From: Methanocellales archaeon
Lineage (GTDB): Archaea; Halobacteriota; UBA148
NCBI GenBank assembly: GCA_028715545.1
Contig: JAQURP010000004.1
Span: forward strand, 1 to 46,974
Length of the DNA stretch: 46,974 nucleotides
Direction of reading: 5' to 3'
Under the pieces are notes generated by a model. That model had not been told where the DNA came from. It worked only from the letters and a program-made list of their open reading frames with translations, and did no database searches. Each line of letters starts with the position of its first letter. The first letter of the stretch is position 1. The position numbers and the translations under genes are program-made. Shown piece after piece: positions 3,843-22,551 of the stretch.

Positions 3843-4358
3843 TCAATATCCTTCTTTTCCTATTTTCCGGATTAATTTCAATAATCCTTTTATAATCTCT
3901 ATTGGTGTTGGGGGGTCTCCAGGAATCTTAACATCTACTGGTATTACTTTATCAACTGATCCTATAACTGCATAACTGTCTTTGAATATTCCACTACCAC
4001 AAGCATCATCACCCAGTGCAATGACCCATTTTGGTGAGGGTGTGGCTTCATAGGCCTTACGAAGAGGAGTAATCATGTTACAAGTCACTGGTCCAGTAAC
4101 TATTAATACATCAGCGTGTCTCGGAGAAGCTACAAAGGTAATCCCGTATTGTTCTATATCATAATAGGGATTTGTTAAATTAACTAATTCTATTTCAGGC
4201 GAGCCATCACTGCCGGTATCAACTTCTCTTAGGGCTATACTTCTGCCAAATACTGAACTGATGCTTCTTTTTAATTCAAGATGCAATCTTTTTAGTTCTT
4301 CATCATCTCTATTTTTTTTTGCTTTCGGAGCTATTATCTGGGAAGGGAGGTTATTCAT
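3843..4358 (-). CDS. Hydrogenase small-subunit/NuoB-like protein lacking all cluster-binding cysteines
   Basis: Homologous to NuoB and HycG/EchC, the subunit that normally holds the [4Fe-4S] cluster next to the active site. The fold markers are intact: YYDIEQYGI, ASPRHADVLIVTGPVT, and KWVIALGDDACGSGIFKDSYAV. The four ligand positions are all changed. In DTGxCxxCDIE the cysteines are Asp51 and Pro54, in GDCA the position is Asp118, and in PGCPP it is Asp148. A Cys at 120 is off-position. The subunit therefore should not bind the usual cluster. At 171 residues the length is normal, so this is not a decayed gene. A GGTGATT ribosome site ends two bases before the ATG. It is the last gene of the operon, eight bases after the large subunit. 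It resembles hydrogenase-related (Ehr-type) complexes. Confidence 0.9.
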   Translation of the reverse strand: MNNLPSQIIAPKAKKNRDDEELKRLHLELKRSISSVFGRSIALREVDTGSDGSPEIELVNLTNPYYDIEQYGITFVASPRHADVLIVTGPVTCNMITPLRKAYEATPSPKWVIALGDDACGSGIFKDSYAVIGSVDKVIPVDVKIPGDPPTPIEIIKGLLKLIRKIGKEGY

Positions 4359-4366
4359 TGAATCAC

Positions 4367-5929
4367 CTATAAATCATTGCCTTCGTAAGATAAGTTTAAG
4401 CTTTTATTAATCAAGGGGAAATCTGGCACAATATTTCCCATAACTGCATGCTCTATTGCATACCAGTTACAAAAAGAGGCAGTTCTTACCTTAAATCGAT
4501 CTATCTTTTTATTTTTAATATTAATAAACATGATATTTTGTCCTCTTGAGGATTCAACGATCGAAAAAGAACAACCATCTTTAATATCATAATTTACACT
4601 CATCTCACCTTTGGGCATATTTTTTATTATCCTCAAAATGATATTAGCTGAATTCTTAATCGTATTTGCCTTTATTCTGAATCTAGAAAGAACATCGCCT
4701 TGATTTAAAATTTTATTTGGATTCATAATTTGTTCATATGTCTTGGCATAAGGATGGCATATTCTTTCATCCTTATTTACTCCAGATGCTCTTGCCAGGG
4801 GGCCAGTAAGATTTAGCGGCTTAACCAAACTTTCTTTTATTATTCCTGTTGTTTCAAAACGATCAAGAACAGATGCGTTTTCTAGTATTTTCAAGAAAGA
4901 ACTCGTGAATTGTGAATAAAAATAGTTAAGATACTCTTCTAGTTCATCAAGAGTTTTAGAGTTTACATCTTTGCTTACACCACCTATTATTAACATCCCC
5001 TTGCAAAACCTTGACCCCGTCAGCCTCTCATTCCATCTTAATATCTCTTCCCGTAGATTAAAGAATTGGCTTGCTCCCATAGGGTAGGCTACATCAACAA
5101 TCATTCCTGCAATATCTCCTAACAAAGAATAAATACGCTCCATCTCAGCACATAATACTCTCAGGTGTTCTGCTCGTTTAGAGACTTTAATACCAGATAT
5201 CTTTTCTATTGCTATGCAATATGCAAGCGTATTTGCAATGGTCTCATCTCCGCAGATTGATTCTGCAAATACTACTCCTTCCTCGGGCGTTTTATTCTCG
5301 GCAGATTTTTCAATTCCCCTATGCTTCCAGAAATGCCTTATCTCAAGATTTAATATTGTCTCTCCTATAACATTGAAGCGAAAGTGACCAGGTGCAATTA
5401 TCCCTGCATGAATTGGTCCAACAGATATCTCGTACACGCCCTCTCCGTTTATTTTCTTAAAAAAATAATCTTCTGAAGGCGACACTTTACCTTTAAGTTT
5501 GAGATGTGCATTGGTAAAAGATTTTTTTAGGGGATGAAAACCCTCTGGGTAATATTCGTGTAAAAAAAGTTTTCGGGTATCGAATGAATGATTAAATTCA
5601 ATTCCAAACCCATCCTGCATCTCTCTTTCATATAACACTGCGGTAGGATATATTTGAGCAATGGATTCCGCATTATTATTTATTTTTGATTGTATGATTA
5701 GCAATTTTCTATAATCAGCTTTCTCAAAAACATAAATTAGAGTAATTCCTTTTTGGTTCTTGAAATTTTCAATCCCGAATTCTAAGATTAAATTAAAGTG
5801 TAAACTCTTTAAAGATTTTGAGATTTCCACAATCTCTTTAGGATTAATAAATACATATTCTTCTAAATCTGTTTCTTCATCATAGATAATTGAAGGGAAC
5901 AATTGTTTTAGCTGGTCTTTGTAACTCAT
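4367..5929 (-). CDS. HycE/NuoCD-like large subunit without a complete [NiFe] site
   Basis: A fusion of a NuoC-like domain (about 1-140, signature YEREMQDGFGIEF and YPEGFHPLKKSF) and a NuoD/hydrogenase large-subunit domain (GPIHAGIIAPGHFRF near 171, HRGIEK at 203-208), as in HycE/HyfG. [NiFe] hydrogenases bind nickel with two CxxC pairs. Here the first pair reads C226-G-D-E229 and the C-terminal DPCxxC is replaced by SLNLSYEGNDL, so only one of four ligands remains. Hydrogen chemistry is therefore not expected. I place the start at ATG 5929, one base past the upstream stop and preceded by a GGGGGT site, rather than at the TTG at 5944. At 520 residues it is full length. Function unknown; partner of the altered small subunit. 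Confidence 0.9.
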   Translation of the reverse strand: MSYKDQLKQLFPSIIYDEETDLEEYVFINPKEIVEISKSLKSLHFNLILEFGIENFKNQKGITLIYVFEKADYRKLLIIQSKINNNAESIAQIYPTAVLYEREMQDGFGIEFNHSFDTRKLFLHEYYPEGFHPLKKSFTNAHLKLKGKVSPSEDYFFKKINGEGVYEISVGPIHAGIIAPGHFRFNVIGETILNLEIRHFWKHRGIEKSAENKTPEEGVVFAESICGDETIANTLAYCIAIEKISGIKVSKRAEHLRVLCAEMERIYSLLGDIAGMIVDVAYPMGASQFFNLREEILRWNERLTGSRFCKGMLIIGGVSKDVNSKTLDELEEYLNYFYSQFTSSFLKILENASVLDRFETTGIIKESLVKPLNLTGPLARASGVNKDERICHPYAKTYEQIMNPNKILNQGDVLSRFRIKANTIKNSANIILRIIKNMPKGEMSVNYDIKDGCSFSIVESSRGQNIMFINIKNKKIDRFKVRTASFCNWYAIEHAVMGNIVPDFPLINKSLNLSYEGNDL

Positions 5930-5930
5930 T

Positions 5931-7379
5931 TCATAAACCCCCAAATCCTAATTGTGAACTAATCACATTCAAAAAATCGAATAAAATTTTGGGCATGTAA
6001 ACCCCAAGGAGAAGTAGCATTATTATCAATATAACAATTGGCATTTTCATATTTATGAAAATTGGATATTTTTCAGGTGTGTTTCCTTGTTCTGTCACTA
6101 TTCGCAAGATAAACCAAACAAATGAACTCGCTGCAATTAATATGAACATCAATAAGATGAAAGCTAAACTTAAAGATACCTTAGATAATGAAGCAATAAT
6201 AAAGAATTTTGGGATAAATATTGGGAACAAAGGCGTACCAATTATTGCAATGCTTCCAATTATCAAGCCCGTTGCTGCTAACGGTTGAAGTTTTAGCACA
6301 TTTCGTATCTCTCCCACTTTAACTGATCCGTATTGCCTATGAATTATGCCTGCTGAAAAGAACAAAAGTGCTTTGGTAAGTGCATGAGCCAACACATAAA
6401 ATAAGGTCCAAAAAAGATTTCCTACTGCAACACCTATAAGTATAAACCCCATATTTTCTATGCTAGAAAATGCTATTAATTTTTTGATATTTCTTCTTAC
6501 AGGCATACTAAAACCCGCAATACCCACAGTGATGATGCCAAAAACCAACAATACATTGGATGCTGTCTGACCATAAATTGTTGGATGAATTAAGGAATAC
6601 ATTCTTATAATTGCATAAATGCCTATATTTAGGACAACACTTGAAAGTAGAACACTTACATCAGAAGCTGCTTTAGCATGAGACGGAGGCAACCAGGCAT
6701 GAAATGGAACAATACCAGATTTAGCCGCAAATCCAATGTAAATTAATACAAACGAAAATAATAGCAGCTGAGGGCTGATCTGACCCGCTACTTGCAACAA
6801 CTCGTTCCAATTCAATGTTGGTTCTATGCCCGCACTTTTGCTTGCAGCAAATAAAAAAACAAGCCCGACAAGTGAAAATAACATTGCTGTTGAAGTAATA
6901 AAAATGTATTTAATAGCAGCAATTATATTCTCTTTGGCATTTAAAACAACTATGAGAACTGCTGAGATTATAGTTGTAATTTCAGCAAATATCCATAATA
7001 ATGCTAGATTATTTGATACGAATACACCTATTGTGCTTATAAACAGCAAGTTATAAGCAAGATAAAACAATTTTATATTGGATTCTTTAAGTTCATTTTC
7101 TTTAACTAATAAAAAAACATATCCTTTAGCATAAATAGATGCAAGGAAAAAAATTACCCCCGCTATAAGAATCTCATAAAGACTTAGCGCATCTATTGAA
7201 ACATAATTGTTGCTTAGCAAACTGATTGGGAGTGCTGCATACACAAATAAATAAATAGGAGTAACAATTGCAATCAAAGAATTGAATATTGTTAAAATAT
7301 TTATCAAGGCATTAGATTTGGCCAATATAATAATGATGAATGATAAAATGAAAAACAGTAATATTATGCCATATATCAT
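5931..7379 (-). CDS. HyfF/NuoN-like antiporter-type membrane subunit
   Basis: A roughly 14-helix membrane protein of the complex I/Mrp antiporter family (482 residues). It keeps the helix-5 glutamate (Glu133 in WIFAEITT) and the central lysine (Lys220 in GFAAKSGIVPFHAWLPPSHAKA) that form the proton channel in NuoL/M/N. The position often occupied by a second lysine on the following helix is Asn251; I am not sure this is unusual for HyfF-type subunits. A GGTGA site lies seven bases before the ATG. It follows the HyfE-like gene by 20 bases and precedes the large subunit by one base. Its presence implies that the complex moves ions across the membrane despite the altered catalytic arm. Confidence 0.9.
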   Translation of the reverse strand: MIYGIILLFFILSFIIIILAKSNALINILTIFNSLIAIVTPIYLFVYAALPISLLSNNYVSIDALSLYEILIAGVIFFLASIYAKGYVFLLVKENELKESNIKLFYLAYNLLFISTIGVFVSNNLALLWIFAEITTIISAVLIVVLNAKENIIAAIKYIFITSTAMLFSLVGLVFLFAASKSAGIEPTLNWNELLQVAGQISPQLLLFSFVLIYIGFAAKSGIVPFHAWLPPSHAKAASDVSVLLSSVVLNIGIYAIIRMYSLIHPTIYGQTASNVLLVFGIITVGIAGFSMPVRRNIKKLIAFSSIENMGFILIGVAVGNLFWTLFYVLAHALTKALLFFSAGIIHRQYGSVKVGEIRNVLKLQPLAATGLIIGSIAIIGTPLFPIFIPKFFIIASLSKVSLSLAFILLMFILIAASSFVWFILRIVTEQGNTPEKYPIFINMKMPIVILIIMLLLLGVYMPKILFDFLNVISSQLGFGGL

Positions 7380-7399
7380 TCTTCAGTCACCTTCTTAAA

Positions 7400-8062
7400 C
7401 TATTTATGAAAAGGATTCAATTTATCATGGAATTTCTCAACAGAAGAATCCATCCCAAATCCAAGGATAGAGGTAACGGCTAATAACACTAACATGTCCA
7501 TTAAGATAAGAATCTCAATTAAAAAAGGTAGATCGCCTATGAAAATACTTAATAAAACAACGCCATTTTCCATCATAAGATATCCAATAATTTTTGTAAT
7601 TATCTTTTTTCTCGCAACAATGATAAGCATCCCTATGAGGATCATTGACACGCCAAGGACGATGCTGATATAATTAAGCGAATTTACTTGCAATTGTTCT
7701 TTTATTCCGAGAAACGAAAAGAATAACGTTCCAAAAATTATTAAACTCATAAATATTGATGTTGTTGGACTAAACAGATTATATTCTAAATCAACATATA
7801 TTTCCATGCTCTTTTGGGTTCTCTTCAGCATAATTGGAACTAATAGGCATTTGCTTATTAGAGTAAGCAAAGCAATGTACAGTAAAACTATTTTTTTATC
7901 TTCAAAAAAAATAAGAAGAACCAGTAATGAAAGAATAAAAGATTGAAATGAATATGTATTAATAAGAGAGATTAAATTTCTACGCGATACAGAAACTACT
8001 GTTAATAAGATGATTGTAACAATAAAGATCTTCTGCAGGTCAGTAAATAGTAATATATTCAT
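7400..8062 (-). CDS. HyfE-like (NuoK-related) membrane subunit
   Basis: A 220-residue protein with about six membrane helices. The C-terminal half matches the HyfE pattern of a basic ARKKIITKIIGY segment followed by MMENGVVLLS and a final helix rich in leucine. Glu165 in MMENG corresponds to the conserved NuoK glutamate. In Hyf-type complexes this subunit sits between the NuoH-like and NuoN-like proteins in the membrane arm. The start ATG overlaps the stop of the upstream HyfC-like gene (8059-8062), so the two are translationally coupled. The first 80 residues are poorly conserved. Confidence 0.82.
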   Translation of the reverse strand: MNILLFTDLQKIFIVTIILLTVVSVSRRNLISLINTYSFQSFILSLLVLLIFFEDKKIVLLYIALLTLISKCLLVPIMLKRTQKSMEIYVDLEYNLFSPTTSIFMSLIIFGTLFFSFLGIKEQLQVNSLNYISIVLGVSMILIGMLIIVARKKIITKIIGYLMMENGVVLLSIFIGDLPFLIEILILMDMLVLLAVTSILGFGMDSSVEKFHDKLNPFHK

Positions 8063-8991
8063 AGCAATACCTCAATTAATATTGTGATAAAAGATAAAAA
8101 ATAGCTCATTGCAAATAAATTAGATAAACGAAAAAACCTTAATTTTGCAACATTAGATTCAATTATGCCTATGCCAATAACAAATAACAGGCTTTTAATA
8201 AAAAACATGATTACTGCAATTGATAGTGTCATTATCTGCATTGTTGTGGAGACGCCAATGGGGATAAAAATATTAACAATAATGCCTATCAACACAAGTT
8301 GTTTTATTGCCGAAGACCATTCGATTAAAGCAAGATTTTTCCCTGATTGCTCCAAAACCATAGCTTCATGAATCATCGTAAGTTCTAAATGCGTTTCAGG
8401 ATTATCAACAGGTATCCTTGAACTTTCAGTAATAAGAATTATAATGAATGGAATAAATAATAACCACAAAAAAACATGATTCTGGCTAAGCAATGAGTTC
8501 TTAATAATTTCAAAAAAGTTAACACTATTAAAACTAAAAGCGACTGCAGCAAAAACCATTATGATGGTTGGCTCAATAATAGCCGACACGCTCATTTCTC
8601 TTGAGCTCCCCATACCTCCAAATGTGCTTCCAGCATCAAGACCGCTAAGAGCAATAAAAAATTTAGTTAACATTAGGATATATGAAAATAGGATAATATT
8701 CCCAAATATGTTTGAATTATTGGGGATAAATATAAGGGGTACAAATAATGACAACAAAAGTGAGCCTGTAAAGTCTACGTATGGGGTAACCCGTGTGATA
8801 AATGAAGAATTGCGGGAGTAAAGACTTTCTTTTTTCAGTAATTTGAAGATATTGCGATATGTTTGAACAACACTTGGGCCGTGCCTGCCTTGAAGAATAG
8901 CTTTAACCTTTTTAATTACAGAAATATATAAAGGTGATAAAAATAACACTAAGGTTAGGTTTGCAATAGCAAATAATAAAAAGCCATTCAT
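8059..8991 (-). CDS. HyfC/NuoH-like membrane subunit
   Basis: The 310-residue membrane protein that normally links the catalytic arm to the pump subunits (HycD/HyfC/NuoH family). The diagnostic segment ESSRIPVDNPETHLELTMIHEAMVLEQSG-like is present and well conserved, with the acidic residues thought to couple redox changes to proton movement. The loop DAGSTFGGMGSSRE is also typical. A GGGGTGATT site lies five bases before the ATG. The start overlaps the end of the HyfB-like gene by four bases. Strong conservation of this coupling subunit next to metal-free catalytic subunits suggests it is still under selection for energy coupling. Confidence 0.9.
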   Translation of the reverse strand: MNGFLLFAIANLTLVLFLSPLYISVIKKVKAILQGRHGPSVVQTYRNIFKLLKKESLYSRNSSFITRVTPYVDFTGSLLLSLFVPLIFIPNNSNIFGNIILFSYILMLTKFFIALSGLDAGSTFGGMGSSREMSVSAIIEPTIIMVFAAVAFSFNSVNFFEIIKNSLLSQNHVFLWLLFIPFIIILITESSRIPVDNPETHLELTMIHEAMVLEQSGKNLALIEWSSAIKQLVLIGIIVNIFIPIGVSTTMQIMTLSIAVIMFFIKSLLFVIGIGIIESNVAKLRFFRLSNLFAMSYFLSFITILIEVLL

Positions 8992-10946
8992 CTGATAATC
9001 ACCCCTAAATACAGTAATAAGGAAATAATTGCAAAAAAACTAATTAGGATGTAGGGGTATAACTCAACTCTATTTTGTAAAGAGTATAAAACAGACGAAA
9101 CTTTGCTAATTACCCTGAAAACAGGCATATATAAGTACTCTTCAAAAAATTTTATCAAACTAATCTTTGCTTCACCTTCTTTAAAGAATACCCCATCCGG
9201 ATCATAAAATGACTTTTTATTAACAAGTTTTGGTTTATAGATGCTGCTAAAAATGGTGGTGACTGGCTGTGAAAATCCTGATGCAGTGTATTCCATACGT
9301 CCATTTTGCGAATTTATCCCGCACCCCCATGTTTCGGTTACTCTGGATTTATTATTACCGACCATTTTCATTATAAGGTAGGTCAAGCCTCCTAAAAATA
9401 CGGCAATCATTGATAAGATGAGAAGATTAGGTAAAGAAAAATTTATTCCAACTTTTTGCCCAATCACTTCGAATATCTGGTAAGAAAAAACTCCTAACGC
9501 TATACAAAATATTGCAATTATTGCTGGTCCGATTATCATAGAAGAATCAACTTCTTTTGCGGATTCTGCTTCTTTTGATCTGGGTGACGCCAAAAAAACT
9601 ATTCCAAATGCTTTTACAAAACATACCGCTGCCAAAGTGCTGGTCAATGCAAATAAAGATAATGATAAAATAAGGATTATTTTAATTATTGGTGACGATA
9701 AAACGTTAAATTTTAAGAACACTTGAAAAATCATCAATTCGCTTACAAATCCATTGAACGGAGGCAAGGCACTTATAGAAATTGCGCCTATTAAAAACAA
9801 TAGCGCAGTATAAGGCATTTTCTTGATCAATCCACCCATCTCTTCAATGTTTTTCGTATTCATCCTATACACAACCGAGCCCGAGCTTAAGAAAAGCAAA
9901 CTCTTGAAAAGAGCATGATTGAGGGTGTGAAATAACGCCGCAAATATGGAAATCATAGCCAAATCCCTGACTTGATAAAATGAGAATATCATATAAAGGC
10001 CGACTCCCAATAGAATAATGCCTATATTTTCGATGCTATGGTATGCAAGCAGCCTTTTGATGTCATGTTCCTTTAGCGCATAAATTACTCCTAATAACGC
10101 GGACACAGTGCCTGCAATCAGTATAAGAATTCCCCACCATAACTGCTGTTCTGGTAAAAGGAAGAGAAATCTGAGGAAACCATAGATTGCAACTTTAATC
10201 ATCACGCCGGACATTAAGGCAGAGATGGAAGATGGGCTTGCAGGATGAGCATAAGGCAACCATTTGTGGAAAGGGATTACTCCTGCTTTAATGGCAAAAC
10301 CCGCTGTTAAAGACAAAAAAATCAGTGATGCTAATGGTGCAGATAAACCTTGTAACGGGGTGTAATCAAGACTATTAGTGTGGTTATAAATCAGGGTAAA
10401 AGCAAAGATTAAGAAGATTGTGCTCATCTGAGTCATAACAAAATAGAATATGCCTGCTTTTTTTGTTTCTTTTTTATCATAATCAAACATAACTAACATG
10501 AATGAAGAAATAGACATCAATTCCCAGAAAAAGAGAAATGCAATTAAATTGTGAGATGCGACAACAAATACCATTGATAGGATAAAGAATGCTGTTAAGG
10601 AAACTAGCAAGTTTCTTTTAATTTCATTCTCAAAATGTTCGGAATAAGAAATAGAATATATGGCGACCGATAAACCAATTAAACTTATCAATATAATAAA
10701 AAAGGATGCCAAATTATCAATAGAGAGATTAAAAGTAAATCCTGATAGCAGTATGTGAAAATTGACTGTTTCATGCACCAGAACATTAAAAGAAAAGAAC
10801 AACAAACCAGTACAAGCAATGATTAGCGTGAACAAGGATAATTTCCGTATTAGACTTTTTTTTGCGTTGATACAAATTAAGGGAATAATTATTGAAACCG
10901 CAAAAAGAAGCATACTTGACTGAAATATTATCTGAGAATAAGTCAT
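8988..10946 (-). CDS. HyfB/NuoL-like antiporter-type membrane subunit
   Basis: The first gene of the operon; 652 residues and about 16 helices in the HyfB/HycC pattern. The proton-channel residues are in place: Glu142 (FFWELMSISS), Lys220 (GFAIKAGVIPFHKWLPYAHPASPS) and Lys251 (GVMIKVAIYGFLRF). The C-terminal soluble part contains ETWGCGI and MEYTASGFSQP, typical of hydrogenase-4 HyfB and not of NuoL. I place the start at ATG 10946, because an extended ribosome site (10953-10962) ends six bases before it; the upstream ATG at 10958 falls inside that site. The six genes are contiguous or overlapping, so they form one operon. No ferredoxin-like (HyfH/NuoI) gene is included. Confidence 0.92.
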   Translation of the reverse strand: MTYSQIIFQSSMLLFAVSIIIPLICINAKKSLIRKLSLFTLIIACTGLLFFSFNVLVHETVNFHILLSGFTFNLSIDNLASFFIILISLIGLSVAIYSISYSEHFENEIKRNLLVSLTAFFILSMVFVVASHNLIAFLFFWELMSISSFMLVMFDYDKKETKKAGIFYFVMTQMSTIFLIFAFTLIYNHTNSLDYTPLQGLSAPLASLIFLSLTAGFAIKAGVIPFHKWLPYAHPASPSSISALMSGVMIKVAIYGFLRFLFLLPEQQLWWGILILIAGTVSALLGVIYALKEHDIKRLLAYHSIENIGIILLGVGLYMIFSFYQVRDLAMISIFAALFHTLNHALFKSLLFLSSGSVVYRMNTKNIEEMGGLIKKMPYTALLFLIGAISISALPPFNGFVSELMIFQVFLKFNVLSSPIIKIILILSLSLFALTSTLAAVCFVKAFGIVFLASPRSKEAESAKEVDSSMIIGPAIIAIFCIALGVFSYQIFEVIGQKVGINFSLPNLLILSMIAVFLGGLTYLIMKMVGNNKSRVTETWGCGINSQNGRMEYTASGFSQPVTTIFSSIYKPKLVNKKSFYDPDGVFFKEGEAKISLIKFFEEYLYMPVFRVISKVSSVLYSLQNRVELYPYILISFFAIISLLLYLGVIIR

Positions 10947-10952
10947 CTTACT

Positions 10953-10962
10953 GATCATCTCC
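10953..10962 (-). promoter_or_regulatory. Extended Shine-Dalgarno site of the hydrogenase-like operon
   Basis: GGAGATGATC on the minus strand matches nine of ten positions of the anti-16S sequence (GGAGGTGATC), spaced six bases from ATG 10946. It contains an earlier in-frame ATG (10958), which it argues against as the start. Confidence 0.65.
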
Positions 10963-19649: not shown

Positions 19650-20813
19650 ATGAAAATTTTCGTTTTTGAATATGTAAGTGCTGGAGGTTTGGGCGAAACA
19701 CCTCTACTTACCGAGGGTTATGCAATGTTGAAAAGCATTTGTGGCAGTCTCTCCTCTGCTGGGCATGAAGTACATACGTTGTTATGCCCAAAGATAAGTA
19801 AACTTGGTATTCGACCGCCTGCAGACAAGATAGAAACATATTTTTCGCTGCAGGATGTAGAAAAAATCTTGCCACATGTGGATGCTTGTATTCCGATCGC
19901 TCCGGATAATTTATTGTATGACCTTACTAAAATGATCGAAGCCAAAACTTCGATAATAGGGTGCCCCTCTAAAAGCATCTTATCTTGCTCAAATAAGGAT
20001 GAGACTTATAGGATCATCTCCAAGATGTCGAGATATTTTGAAGTGCCAGATTATGCTGCTCTTCCACTAGAGGTCTATCCTGTCTTAGAATATTGTAATG
20101 AAATAGGCTTCCCTGTAGTTATCAAACCAGTCGATGGTGCTGGATGTGAAGGAATCAGTGTGGTAGATTCCAAGGAAGGGTTGGAAGGTGCCATAAAAAA
20201 AGTGTCTGATGTCTCGATGGCGAAGAAGCTTATCGCCCAAAAGTTTTGTGAAGGTGAACCTATGAGCTGTAGCCTCATTTGCTCCCAATCTCGAGTGCTT
20301 CCCATTTCCATGAATTCTCAACGAATCAAAATCTCTGGTAGCAATATCAGCTATCTGGGTGGCATTTCTCCATACCCATGTGCGCATCAAGAGGAAATAT
20401 TTGAGGAATCAAAGGCTATAGCACAAAAATTGGAGTTATTTGGTTTTGTCGGAATGGACCTATTGGTATCGGGGGATAGAATATATTTCATGGAGATCAA
20501 CCCCAGAGTTACCACTTCTTTCATAGCGCTCTCCAATGTAATGCAAATGGGCGAATTGTTGGTCGACTGTCTTGAAGATGCTCTCCCCTCCTCCGTAAAC
20601 CTGAATGGCTTTGGATCTGTCGCCATTTTTCCCTTGAAAAGGAGTTGTGCTGTAGGATATGAAAAAATACTTCAGATTCCTGAGGTTATATCTCCCCCTT
20701 TTTCAGAGAAATGTAAGGTACTGGCATCTGTCAAGAGTTCAAGTTTATATGGTATTTTAGATAAAATTAATGCTGTTCAAAAAAAGTTGAGAGAAATAGG
20801 GGCAATATGTTGA
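19650..20813 (+). CDS. mfnD: Tyramine--L-glutamate ligase (ATP-grasp), methanofuran biosynthesis
   Basis: Ligates glutamate to tyramine, giving gamma-glutamyltyramine for the methanofuran side chain. The N-terminus KIFVFEYVSAGGLGE is typical of MfnD. The ATP-grasp core follows: PVVIKPVDGAGCEGISVV (P-loop-like and lysine), KFCEGEPMSCSLI, and the metal-binding end GFVGMDLLV...FMEINPRVTTSF. The 387 residues exceed the roughly 300 usual for MfnD by an extra C-terminal region of about 70 residues of unknown role. It overlaps the next gene by seven bases. The order mfnD-mfnF-mfnB supports the assignment over other ATP-grasp ligases. Confidence 0.87.
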   Translation: MKIFVFEYVSAGGLGETPLLTEGYAMLKSICGSLSSAGHEVHTLLCPKISKLGIRPPADKIETYFSLQDVEKILPHVDACIPIAPDNLLYDLTKMIEAKTSIIGCPSKSILSCSNKDETYRIISKMSRYFEVPDYAALPLEVYPVLEYCNEIGFPVVIKPVDGAGCEGISVVDSKEGLEGAIKKVSDVSMAKKLIAQKFCEGEPMSCSLICSQSRVLPISMNSQRIKISGSNISYLGGISPYPCAHQEEIFEESKAIAQKLELFGFVGMDLLVSGDRIYFMEINPRVTTSFIALSNVMQMGELLVDCLEDALPSSVNLNGFGSVAIFPLKRSCAVGYEKILQIPEVISPPFSEKCKVLASVKSSSLYGILDKINAVQKKLREIGAIC

Positions 20814-21850
20814 TCATCGGCCTTGATATAGGTGGCGCTTATACAAAGGTCGCCACCCTAAGAGTCCAAGGAAAAAAGAGAGAAGTACTGGAGATAAGCT
20901 CAGATTACTTTCCCTTTTGGAAGCTCAGCGATAAGTTCCCTCAATTCATCAGAGCACGCCTTCCGGAAACAGAAAAATTGATAGGAGTTACTATGACCGC
21001 TGAACTAGCAGACTGCTTCTCTTCTAAAGAAGAAGGCGTTGAGCACATTTTGAACTCCGTTCGCTCCATAGCAAAAACTTTGGTCCTAAGCACCTCTGCA
21101 GAATTCATCAATGCAGAGGAAGCTCTTAGATATCCGCTAGAAGTTGCGGCCTCTAACTGGATTGCACCTTCACTTCTGATCTCAAGGTATGTACCTAACG
21201 CGCTCTTCATCGATGTCGGGAGCACGACGACAGATATAGTTCCCATAGTGGATGGAAAACCTTCCGCTCTAGGTAGAAATGATCTTGAGAGGCTGTCCTA
21301 CGGGGAATTGGTCTACACGGGTGCTCTCAGAACAAATCTCGCCACCATAGTGCAGTCCGTTCCCTTCAGAAATAATGCTATACCTGTGTCATCAGAATAT
21401 TTCAGCATAACTGCAGACATCCATCTTATCTTGGATCATATAAGGGAGGAGGACTATTCTTGTGAGACGCCGGATGGGCGGGGTAAAATCAAAGAAGATA
21501 TATCAAGAAGAATAGCAAGGTTAATATGTGCTGATATGGACATGCTGGACGAGGCTGATGTCATGTGTATGGCAAACCACGTATACAAAAAACAGGTTGA
21601 GCAGATTCAAGCTGGTCTGATCCATGTGATCGAACAACAGCATGTGGGAAGAAATATGCCAGTAATACTTGCAGGAACGGGTGCTCCTTTTTTAGGAAAT
21701 GTTGCAATCAGGCAATTGGGTTATAGCGACATCATATATTTTGAGGAGTTCGTCGAGAGATACCTCGGTCTTTCTGCTGATAAAGCATCCATATCCGCTC
21801 CCGCTTTTAGTATAGCAGCACTCCTAACCATGGAAGGGATGGTAAAATGA
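20807..21850 (+). CDS. mfnF: Methanofuran coupling enzyme MfnF (ASKHA/hydantoinase-like fold)
   Basis: Annotated in many genomes as an H4MPT-linked C1-transfer pathway protein; in Methanocaldococcus the family member joins the aminomethylfuran diphosphate unit to gamma-glutamyltyramine. It has the ASKHA ATPase fold with phosphate loops LIIGLDIGGAYTK (residues 2-14) and FIDVGSTTTDIVPI, and the adenosine motif VILAGTGAPFL. Length of 347 residues fits. It is coupled to mfnD and mfnB by overlaps of seven and four bases. Confidence 0.87.
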   Translation: MLIIGLDIGGAYTKVATLRVQGKKREVLEISSDYFPFWKLSDKFPQFIRARLPETEKLIGVTMTAELADCFSSKEEGVEHILNSVRSIAKTLVLSTSAEFINAEEALRYPLEVAASNWIAPSLLISRYVPNALFIDVGSTTTDIVPIVDGKPSALGRNDLERLSYGELVYTGALRTNLATIVQSVPFRNNAIPVSSEYFSITADIHLILDHIREEDYSCETPDGRGKIKEDISRRIARLICADMDMLDEADVMCMANHVYKKQVEQIQAGLIHVIEQQHVGRNMPVILAGTGAPFLGNVAIRQLGYSDIIYFEEFVERYLGLSADKASISAPAFSIAALLTMEGMVK

Positions 21851-22551
21851 AATTGTTGGTCAGCGTTGTTGATGCAGATGAGACGATTGATGCTCTGAAA
21901 GGTGGTGCAGACATCATTGATGTGAAGAATCCAAGAGAAGGAGCTTTAGGGGCAAATTTTCCATGGATAATAAATGAGATAAAGCAAGCCCTTCCAGACG
22001 GTATTGAGATGAGCTGTGCTCTGGGAGATGTTCCTCATCTGCCTGGCACGGTCAGCCTAGCTGCTTTGGGTTGTGCTTCAATTGGCCCAGATTACATAAA
22101 GGTTGGGCTATATGGGACAAAAAATCAGGGAGAGGCGTCGGAAGTCATGAGAGCTGTGGTGAGAAGCGTTGGTAACTTCAATGACGAAATCAGTATAATA
22201 GCCTCTGGTTATGCCGACTTTAGACGGGTTGGCAGTTTTGATCCCATGCTATTGCCAGAGGTGGCAAGTGAATCCGGGTGCGAGGGAATACTGGTGGACA
22301 CAGGTATCAAAGATGGTACGCGGCTGTTTGACTTCATGAGCCTTGAAAAAATAAGGGATTTTATAGAATGTGGACATGGATTTGGCTTGCTCGTGGCCTT
22401 GGCAGGATCTCTCAGATCTGAAGATGTTTTGCTGCTGAGAGAGATGAAGCCTGACGTTATTGGGGTCAGGGGGGCTGCTTGTGAGCACCATGACAGAAAA
22501 GGCAGGATCTCACTAAAAAGGGTCACGGAGTTAAAAAAAATATTTAGATGA
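21847..22551 (+). CDS. mfnB: (5-formylfuran-3-yl)methyl phosphate synthase
   Basis: Makes the furan ring precursor of methanofuran from two glyceraldehyde-3-phosphates. The 234-residue TIM barrel matches the former DUF556 family: LLVSVVDADETIDALKGGADIIDVKNPREGALGANFPW includes the catalytic Lys in DVKNP, and YIKVGLYG holds the second conserved lysine. Its end overlaps the end of the convergent nrpR by eight bases. The other methanofuran genes (tyrosine decarboxylase mfnA, transaminase mfnC, kinase mfnE) are not in the window. The cluster implies formylmethanofuran-based C1 chemistry in this organism. Confidence 0.92.
   Translation: MKLLVSVVDADETIDALKGGADIIDVKNPREGALGANFPWIINEIKQALPDGIEMSCALGDVPHLPGTVSLAALGCASIGPDYIKVGLYGTKNQGEASEVMRAVVRSVGNFNDEISIIASGYADFRRVGSFDPMLLPEVASESGCEGILVDTGIKDGTRLFDFMSLEKIRDFIECGHGFGLLVALAGSLRSEDVLLLREMKPDVIGVRGAACEHHDRKGRISLKRVTELKKIFR

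Follow-up and report, generated by a model that had tools for sequence, protein, structure and literature searches.

A conserved energy-converting hydrogenase-related operon without nickel, N2 cluster or ferredoxin sites in a Methanocellales archaeon

Operons that resemble those of energy-converting hydrogenases but lack the cysteines for nickel binding have been on record since 2009. The example considered here consists of six intact open reading frames (ORFs) of the energy-converting hydrogenase-related (Ehr) type, located on the minus strand of a Methanocellales archaeon (GTDB lineage UBA148; assembly GCA_028715545.1, contig JAQURP010000004.1). They occupy positions 3843-10958 of the analysed stretch of 46,974 nucleotides, which as a whole is called the window. 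As far as can be read from the sequence, the entire electron path, comprising Ni-Fe site, N2 cluster and ferredoxin module, is lost in the encoded complex.

In the parts of the Ehr literature that were covered, Anderson et al. 2009 (PMC2686161) described the genes Mhun_1817-1822 of M. hungatei, and the homologous operons present in M. acetivorans and M. mazei, as devoid of the Ni cysteines. In the paper on the M. hungatei genome (PMC4704411), the operon was given the name ehrABCDLS and a role in ferredoxin reduction was predicted for it, and Ni-ligand loss in Ehr of the candidate phyla radiation (CPR) was reported by Jaffe et al. 2020 (PMC7304191). The other mentions of Ehr in the text portions covered concern the NiFe site only, and no mention of a loss of the small-subunit cluster or of ferredoxin was found in these portions, outside which the survey of Marreiros et al. 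2013 falls. The Ehr of M. hungatei JF1 (Mhun_1817-1822) and its Methanosarcina homologues represent the same six-gene operon type as the window operon, which is an Ehr subtype, its loss of Ni ligands having been published in 2009. A Methanospirillum metagenome-assembled genome (MAG; locus L038), through which M. hungatei was compared, M. acetivorans (L194) and Methanoregula (L195) are all cluster-free and group with the window.

The closest solved relatives are subunits of the E. coli formate hydrogenlyase (FHL, or Hyc; 7z0s chains C, D, E and G). Both Hyc and Hyf of E. coli differ from the window operon in having NiFe, Fe-S clusters and ferredoxin subunits, and HycC lacks a lysine in transmembrane helix 7 (TM7) that is kept in the window. 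Cluster-bearing Ehr, found in Methanoperedens, Omnitrophota, Methanocella and Bacillota MAGs, share with the window a homologous membrane arm, the SxSG state and a large subunit that is about 35-45% identical, but they have all four N2 cysteines and nearly all have a 2x[4Fe-4S] ferredoxin, either fused or separate. The Ehr of Patescibacteria (CPR) resemble the window in lacking Ni ligands as well as N2 cysteines, whereas their small subunit gene comes first (last in the window) and the replacement residues are mostly T/E/G/D. The same kind of gene set is present in M. tuberculosis as Rv0082-Rv0087. Finally, the Mrp Na+/H+ antiporter has homologous antiporter subunits and, like the window complex, no redox cofactor, but it has no HycE/HycG arm; the window operon encodes subunits resembling NuoH, HycE and HycG, with no gene for MrpB, C, E, F or G, and Mrp forms a separate operon in the host genome.

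Cofactor sites of the soluble arm

The HycE/NuoCD-like large subunit (4367..5944, minus strand; 525 aa, TTG start; Pfam Complex1_30kDa and Complex1_49kDa) carries C231, E234, S519 and G522 at the positions where E. coli HycE (7z0s_E) has its four Ni-ligand cysteines, and the L2 position reads NLSYEG instead of DPCYSC. The initial annotation, made from the letters of the window, had noticed the single remaining ligand cysteine and the absence of a C-terminal DPCxxC. Both are borne out by the alignment to HycE, in which its C226, numbered from a later start codon, is C231 (codon 5252..5254, minus strand). However, the residue is not conserved in relatives: the sister species has Gly here, and Ser is found in the rest of clade A, the larger of the cluster-free groups described below, and for this reason a function as ligand was rejected. 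A C-terminal SFCNW could be ruled out as the L2 motif, since the aligned L2 position is the NLSYEG mentioned above.

In the HycG/NuoB-like small subunit (3843..4358, minus strand; 171 aa; Pfam Oxidored_q6), which has no ferredoxin domain, alignment to HycG (7z0s_G) and MbhJ (6cfw_J) puts D51, P54, D118 and D148 at the N2 cysteine positions, and the suspected absence of all four cluster cysteines is thereby established. The first two positions (D51..P54, 4197..4208) lie in SDGSPEIE, to be compared with SCNGCEVE, the third (D118, 4005..4007) in GDDAC versus GxCA, and the fourth (D148, 3915..3917) in PGDPP versus PGCPP, all on the minus strand.

No ferredoxin-like ORF or domain was found within or beside the operon, which adds a missing ferredoxin module to the earlier remark that no obvious redox cofactor is left. 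A hidden ferredoxin was rejected on the basis of the gene spacing: adjacent genes overlap or lie no more than about 20 bp from each other, and the small-subunit ORF opens right where the large-subunit ORF stops. Replacement clusters elsewhere in the complex were likewise rejected, as the membrane subunits contain no CxxC motif and the conserved cysteines are isolated. The host genome has no 49 kDa (Fpo/Nuo) homologue besides the large subunit of this operon.

With respect to classification, the L1/L2 CxxC Ni ligands and the proximal [4Fe-4S] ligands of group 4 [NiFe] hydrogenases are both absent, and assignment to complex I or Fpo is contradicted by the absence of N2 ligands and of electron-input subunits in the operon. 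In having a membrane arm of the Hyf/Ech kind and a HycE-like large subunit devoid of Ni ligands, the complex agrees with Ehr, although the N2-type cluster and ferredoxin subunit that are usual in surveyed Ehr loci are missing. The survey of ligand positions argues against assigning ferredoxin reduction to Ehr genes of this type.

Both soluble subunits are nevertheless predicted to fold like their cofactor-containing homologues. The model of the small subunit (mean predicted local distance difference test, pLDDT, 90) matches MbhJ (6cfw_J) in a Foldseek search with a TM-score of 0.90 on the target and 1.9 A, and that of the large subunit (pLDDT 83), in which the region around residues 162-191 is poorly predicted, has HycE (7z0s_E) as its best match (TM-score 0.87).

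Distribution and selection

Scanning of genomes for the large subunit yielded 80 loci, of which the small subunits were then read for ligands. Two sets without cluster cysteines emerged. Clade A comprises loci from UBA148, Altiarchaeota, Woesearchaeota, a Dehalococcoidia MAG (Chloroflexota), a Crenarchaeota MAG and Methanospirillum, with the small-subunit motifs SDNxxEIE / GDDAC / PGNPP. The second set (clade B) is found in Patescibacteria and has STNAEEIE / GDGAC / PGDPP and variants thereof. The states are nearly discrete: hydrogenases have CCCC in both subunits, ordinary Ehr have CCCC in the small and SxSG in the large subunit, and cluster-free Ehr combine SxSG with zero small-subunit cysteines (one in some Patescibacteria). 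A more divergent small subunit without N2 cysteines (165 bits; GDNSAELE / GTDAISGGL / CGNPP) was seen in another member of the Patescibacteria (locus L153, genome G485), perhaps a further cluster-free lineage.

In profile searches the clade-A type was detected in 18 of 295 Halobacteriota genomes, in 3 of the 237 genomes of the Woesearchaeota phylum, and in 19/31 genomes of genus g57, presumably Methanosarcina, one of these loci being truncated. The cluster-free type also occurs in 10 of 380 genomes of a sampled Patescibacteria phylum. Altogether, 38 species-level clade-A genomes in the tree and about 18 Patescibacteria, so about 56 genomes, are cluster-free. Two of the carriers, which we take to be M. 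acetivorans C2A (G687, locus L194) and Methanoregula boonei (G060), likewise have the six genes without a ferredoxin; in the former the operon is located at 5,385,306-5,392,629. No cluster-free locus spanning the region has lost the large or the small subunit.

That the operon would be a decaying hydrogenase gene cluster, or an error in the assembly of a MAG, could be proposed in view of its absence from two genomes of the same genus (G001 and G003), from which it follows that the operon is dispensable. Such an explanation is hardly credible, and it was rejected. The same state recurs in the about 56 genomes with full-length ORFs, replacement residues that are fixed, and a ratio of nonsynonymous to synonymous substitution rates (dN/dS) far below 1. 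The sister species in UBA148 (G002, locus L033), of which the large subunit is 95% identical, is likewise devoid of cluster ligands. Homologues that have their N2 cysteines intact, which the initial annotation would have taken as a sign of artefact or single-strain decay if present in a sister genome, do exist, but fall in clades separate from clade A. Comparison of the window with L033 by the Nei-Gojobori method (NG86) gave dN/dS values of 0.15 (HyfB), 0.08 (HyfC), 0.12 (HyfE), 0.22 (HyfF), 0.14 (large subunit) and 0.24 (small subunit). For nine Methanosarcina-type and Methanoregula-type genome pairs the values were 0.06-0.19 for the small and 0.10-0.14 for the large subunit, and the ranges over all compared pairs of close species are 0.06-0.24 and 0.09-0.14, respectively. 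The two catalytic subunits are thus far from the value near 1 that was to indicate decay, and the proposal of selection instead of decay stands for all six genes.

Membrane arm and possible modes of action

The tightly packed order HyfB-HyfC-HyfE-HyfF-HycE-HycG was correctly recognized at the outset, as was the boundary at 3843; the other boundary had been placed at 10946, which is 12 bases inside the ATG start adopted in this analysis (10958). The first gene (8988..10958, minus strand) encodes a HyfB/HycC-like antiporter subunit of 656 aa (NCBIfam NF006418, above cut-off). It is followed on the same strand by genes for a HyfC/HycD/NuoH-like subunit (8059..8991; 310 aa; Pfam NADHdh), a HyfE-like membrane subunit (7400..8062; 220 aa) and a HyfF-like antiporter subunit (5931..7379; 482 aa; NCBIfam NF006427, above cut-off). 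The Pfam domain Proton_antipo_M was matched twice in the operon. The HyfE-like protein gave no match in the Pfam search and matched the NCBIfam entry for hydrogenase 4 membrane subunit below the cut-off.

The residues expected along the ion path are in place. The HyfB-like subunit retains E146 (TM5), K224 (TM7), K255, H348 and E407, the HyfF-like subunit E133, K157, K220, H332 and K336, and the HyfC-like subunit the E-channel glutamates E132, E140, E189, E203, E209 and E214. In the alignment to E. coli FHL, E132, E140 and E189 correspond to E130, E138 and E189 of HycD, and K224 corresponds to Leu208 of HycC; the authors of the FHL structure (PMC9474812) comment on the loss of this TM7 lysine in E. 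coli. Judged by alignment, the ion path of the window complex appears if anything more complete than that of FHL. Antiporter and E-channel residues are present alike in cluster-free and cluster-bearing complexes, and the initial suggestion of an ion-translocating machine fits their retention.

These observations suggest a member of the complex I superfamily that would operate without electron transfer, namely as a secondary ion antiporter in which the former catalytic arm serves as cap or gate, a reading that we consider about evenly balanced between right and wrong. With the Ni-Fe site, the N2 cluster and ferredoxin all absent, no electrons would be transferred. Using existing ion gradients as in Mrp, the membrane arm would exchange H+ against Na+ or a different cation, and the large and small subunits would be kept as a structural cap or gate controlling whether the E-channel is closed or open. 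A simpler version, in which the complex is a plain Na+/H+ antiporter and the arm is an assembly remnant without gating role, accords with the kept antiporter residues and with the fact that Mrp complexes need no such arm. It is quite improbable, however, since the arm is under purifying selection as strong as that acting on the membrane subunits, and it persists in every cluster-free locus covering the region.

The residues that have replaced the N2 ligands can be incorporated in this cap-or-gate scheme. Within clade A, D51 and D118 are each found in 40/41 sequences, N148 in 39/41 (Asp in the window), and K144 in all 41, whereas position 144 is Tyr in 45 of the 52 cluster-bearing forms. Since the replacement sites are fixed in clade A, they point to selection for something and not to relaxation. 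Clade B has T51, mostly E54, mostly Gly at 118, D/N148 and mostly K/R144. More speculatively, the polar cluster D51/D118/N(D)148/K144 at the old N2 site could act as a protonatable, salt-bridge or ion-binding switch that replaces the redox-driven charge change. The wider proposal that the machine has reverted to a redox-free ion exchanger, with the whole arm kept and the N2 site turned into a conserved polar switch, is attractive, but we hold it tentatively, with confidence slightly short of even. Alternatively, metal or ion binding of a new, non-redox kind might take place at the four sites (Asp, Asp and Asn/Asp, Lys144 being nearby), by which a monovalent or divalent cation would be sensed or bound and the pump gated. 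In both clades three of the four positions offer oxygen donors (D51, D118 and N148 in A; T51, E54 and D148 in B), and the residues are nearly invariant within clade A. Nevertheless, clade B has mostly Gly at position 118, the neighbouring K144 would disfavour a bare cation, and a salt-bridge network accounts for the residues equally well, which makes such a site decidedly unlikely.

Some points weigh against a gated antiporter. The host genome also has a full Mrp operon, which would make a second antiporter partly redundant. The conservation of the soluble arm demands more than a passive plug, and the invariant His179 of the large subunit, together with C243 and C492, is kept, which could mean an unrecognised ligand or chemistry. 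The main rival supposes that the retained pocket holds a redox ligand other than a metal: the complex might still carry out redox reactions with an organic cofactor (flavin, F420, a quinone or a methanophenazine-like compound) or with a soluble partner bound there, and hydride or two-electron chemistry in the arm would then drive the membrane arm with no need of Fe-S clusters. The soluble arm is fully conserved, the pocket His179 is invariant in clade A (41/41) and the pocket Arg is also present, and the low dN/dS of the large subunit is on a level with that of the pump subunits. Yet there is no route for electrons to enter or leave, as both N2 and ferredoxin are missing, and no conserved redox partner gene adjoining the six genes is common to the carriers' neighbourhoods. 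It is also hard to name a carrier shared by Methanosarcina, Altiarchaeota, Chloroflexota and Patescibacteria, and in clade A Phe mostly takes the place of the pocket Tyr (32/41), although Phe is also found in 28/52 cluster-bearing Ehr. On balance we regard a redox function of this kind as rather unlikely.

If the antiporter explanation is correct, electrons are not required for running or gating the membrane arm and E-channel. A conserved cluster-free relative may serve as a natural control: if it moves ions, coupling needs no electrons, and if another ligand is bound, that ligand is the trigger. The proposal is directly testable because the carriers include the genetically tractable M. acetivorans. 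Reduced genomes of Patescibacteria and DPANN, the energy metabolism of which is poorly understood, are also among the carriers.

Descent and host genome

Clade A forms a single group with full support in the Shimodaira-Hasegawa-like approximate likelihood ratio test (SH-aLRT 100), beside cluster-bearing Bacillota Ehr. Horizontal transfer across domains within this clade is likely, as it crosses domains, with one member (L036) located on a contig that carries bacterial-type PheS/PheT and ThrS genes. On the question whether N2 was lost once or separately in clades A and B, two samples differ: a first tree gave 3 changes, with p 0.045 in the approximately unbiased (AU) test against one cluster-free clade, whereas with a larger sample a single clade was not rejected (AU p 0.48) and the better tree unites clade B. 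If A and B are separate, reversion to a redox-free exchanger would have happened more than once.

The operon in the window was likely acquired horizontally, because it is AT-rich and absent from G001 and G003. Its GC content is 0.33 as compared to 0.41 in the rest of the window, and third-position GC (GC3) is 0.23-0.34 (about 0.28) versus 0.43-0.52 (about 0.46) in five other window genes.

Concerning the order of losses, Ehr operons on plasmids of Rhizobium and Burkholderia look like an intermediate state. They have the gene order of the window and likewise no ferredoxin gene and no Ni ligands, but differ in having four N2 cysteines (SCNGCELE / GxCA-type / PGCPP). Because these operons lack ferredoxin and yet keep the N2 cysteines, the ligand patterns plausibly reflect loss of Ni-Fe first, then ferredoxin, then N2. 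The two loci (L191:2245-9414 and L192:2264-9411) are annotated as hydrogenase 4 or formate hydrogenlyase, and 59 plasmid records match this type of small subunit strongly. Other possible intermediates are the bacterial Ehr loci L079, L080, L108, L109 and L112, with four N2 cysteines and no ferredoxin ORF seen nearby.

In the window, the operon is flanked by HisD on one side and by a small ORF and an aspartyl-tRNA synthetase (AspRS) gene on the other. The host genome measures 1.23 Mb and is 94% complete. Its full Mrp-type operon (G000:C12:3317-12765, locus L193) encodes MrpE/F/G/B/C-like proteins and four antiporter subunits and lies beside an A-type ATP synthase beta gene; the antiporter-like subunits found in the genome all belong to this operon or to that in the window. 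McrA was not found in the host genome, and genes resembling those for methanofuran biosynthesis (an ATP-grasp ligase, a hydantoinase-like kinase and MfnB-like), assigned by reading of the sequence and not by profile search, are present at 19650-22551 of the window. The host seems to be a non-methanogen that keeps a methanofuran/C1 pathway. A contig-end fragment (G000:C13:3-74) matches the N-terminal part of large subunits of NiFe hydrogenases, and the organism may hold a true NiFe hydrogenase of which the gene was cut by the assembly.

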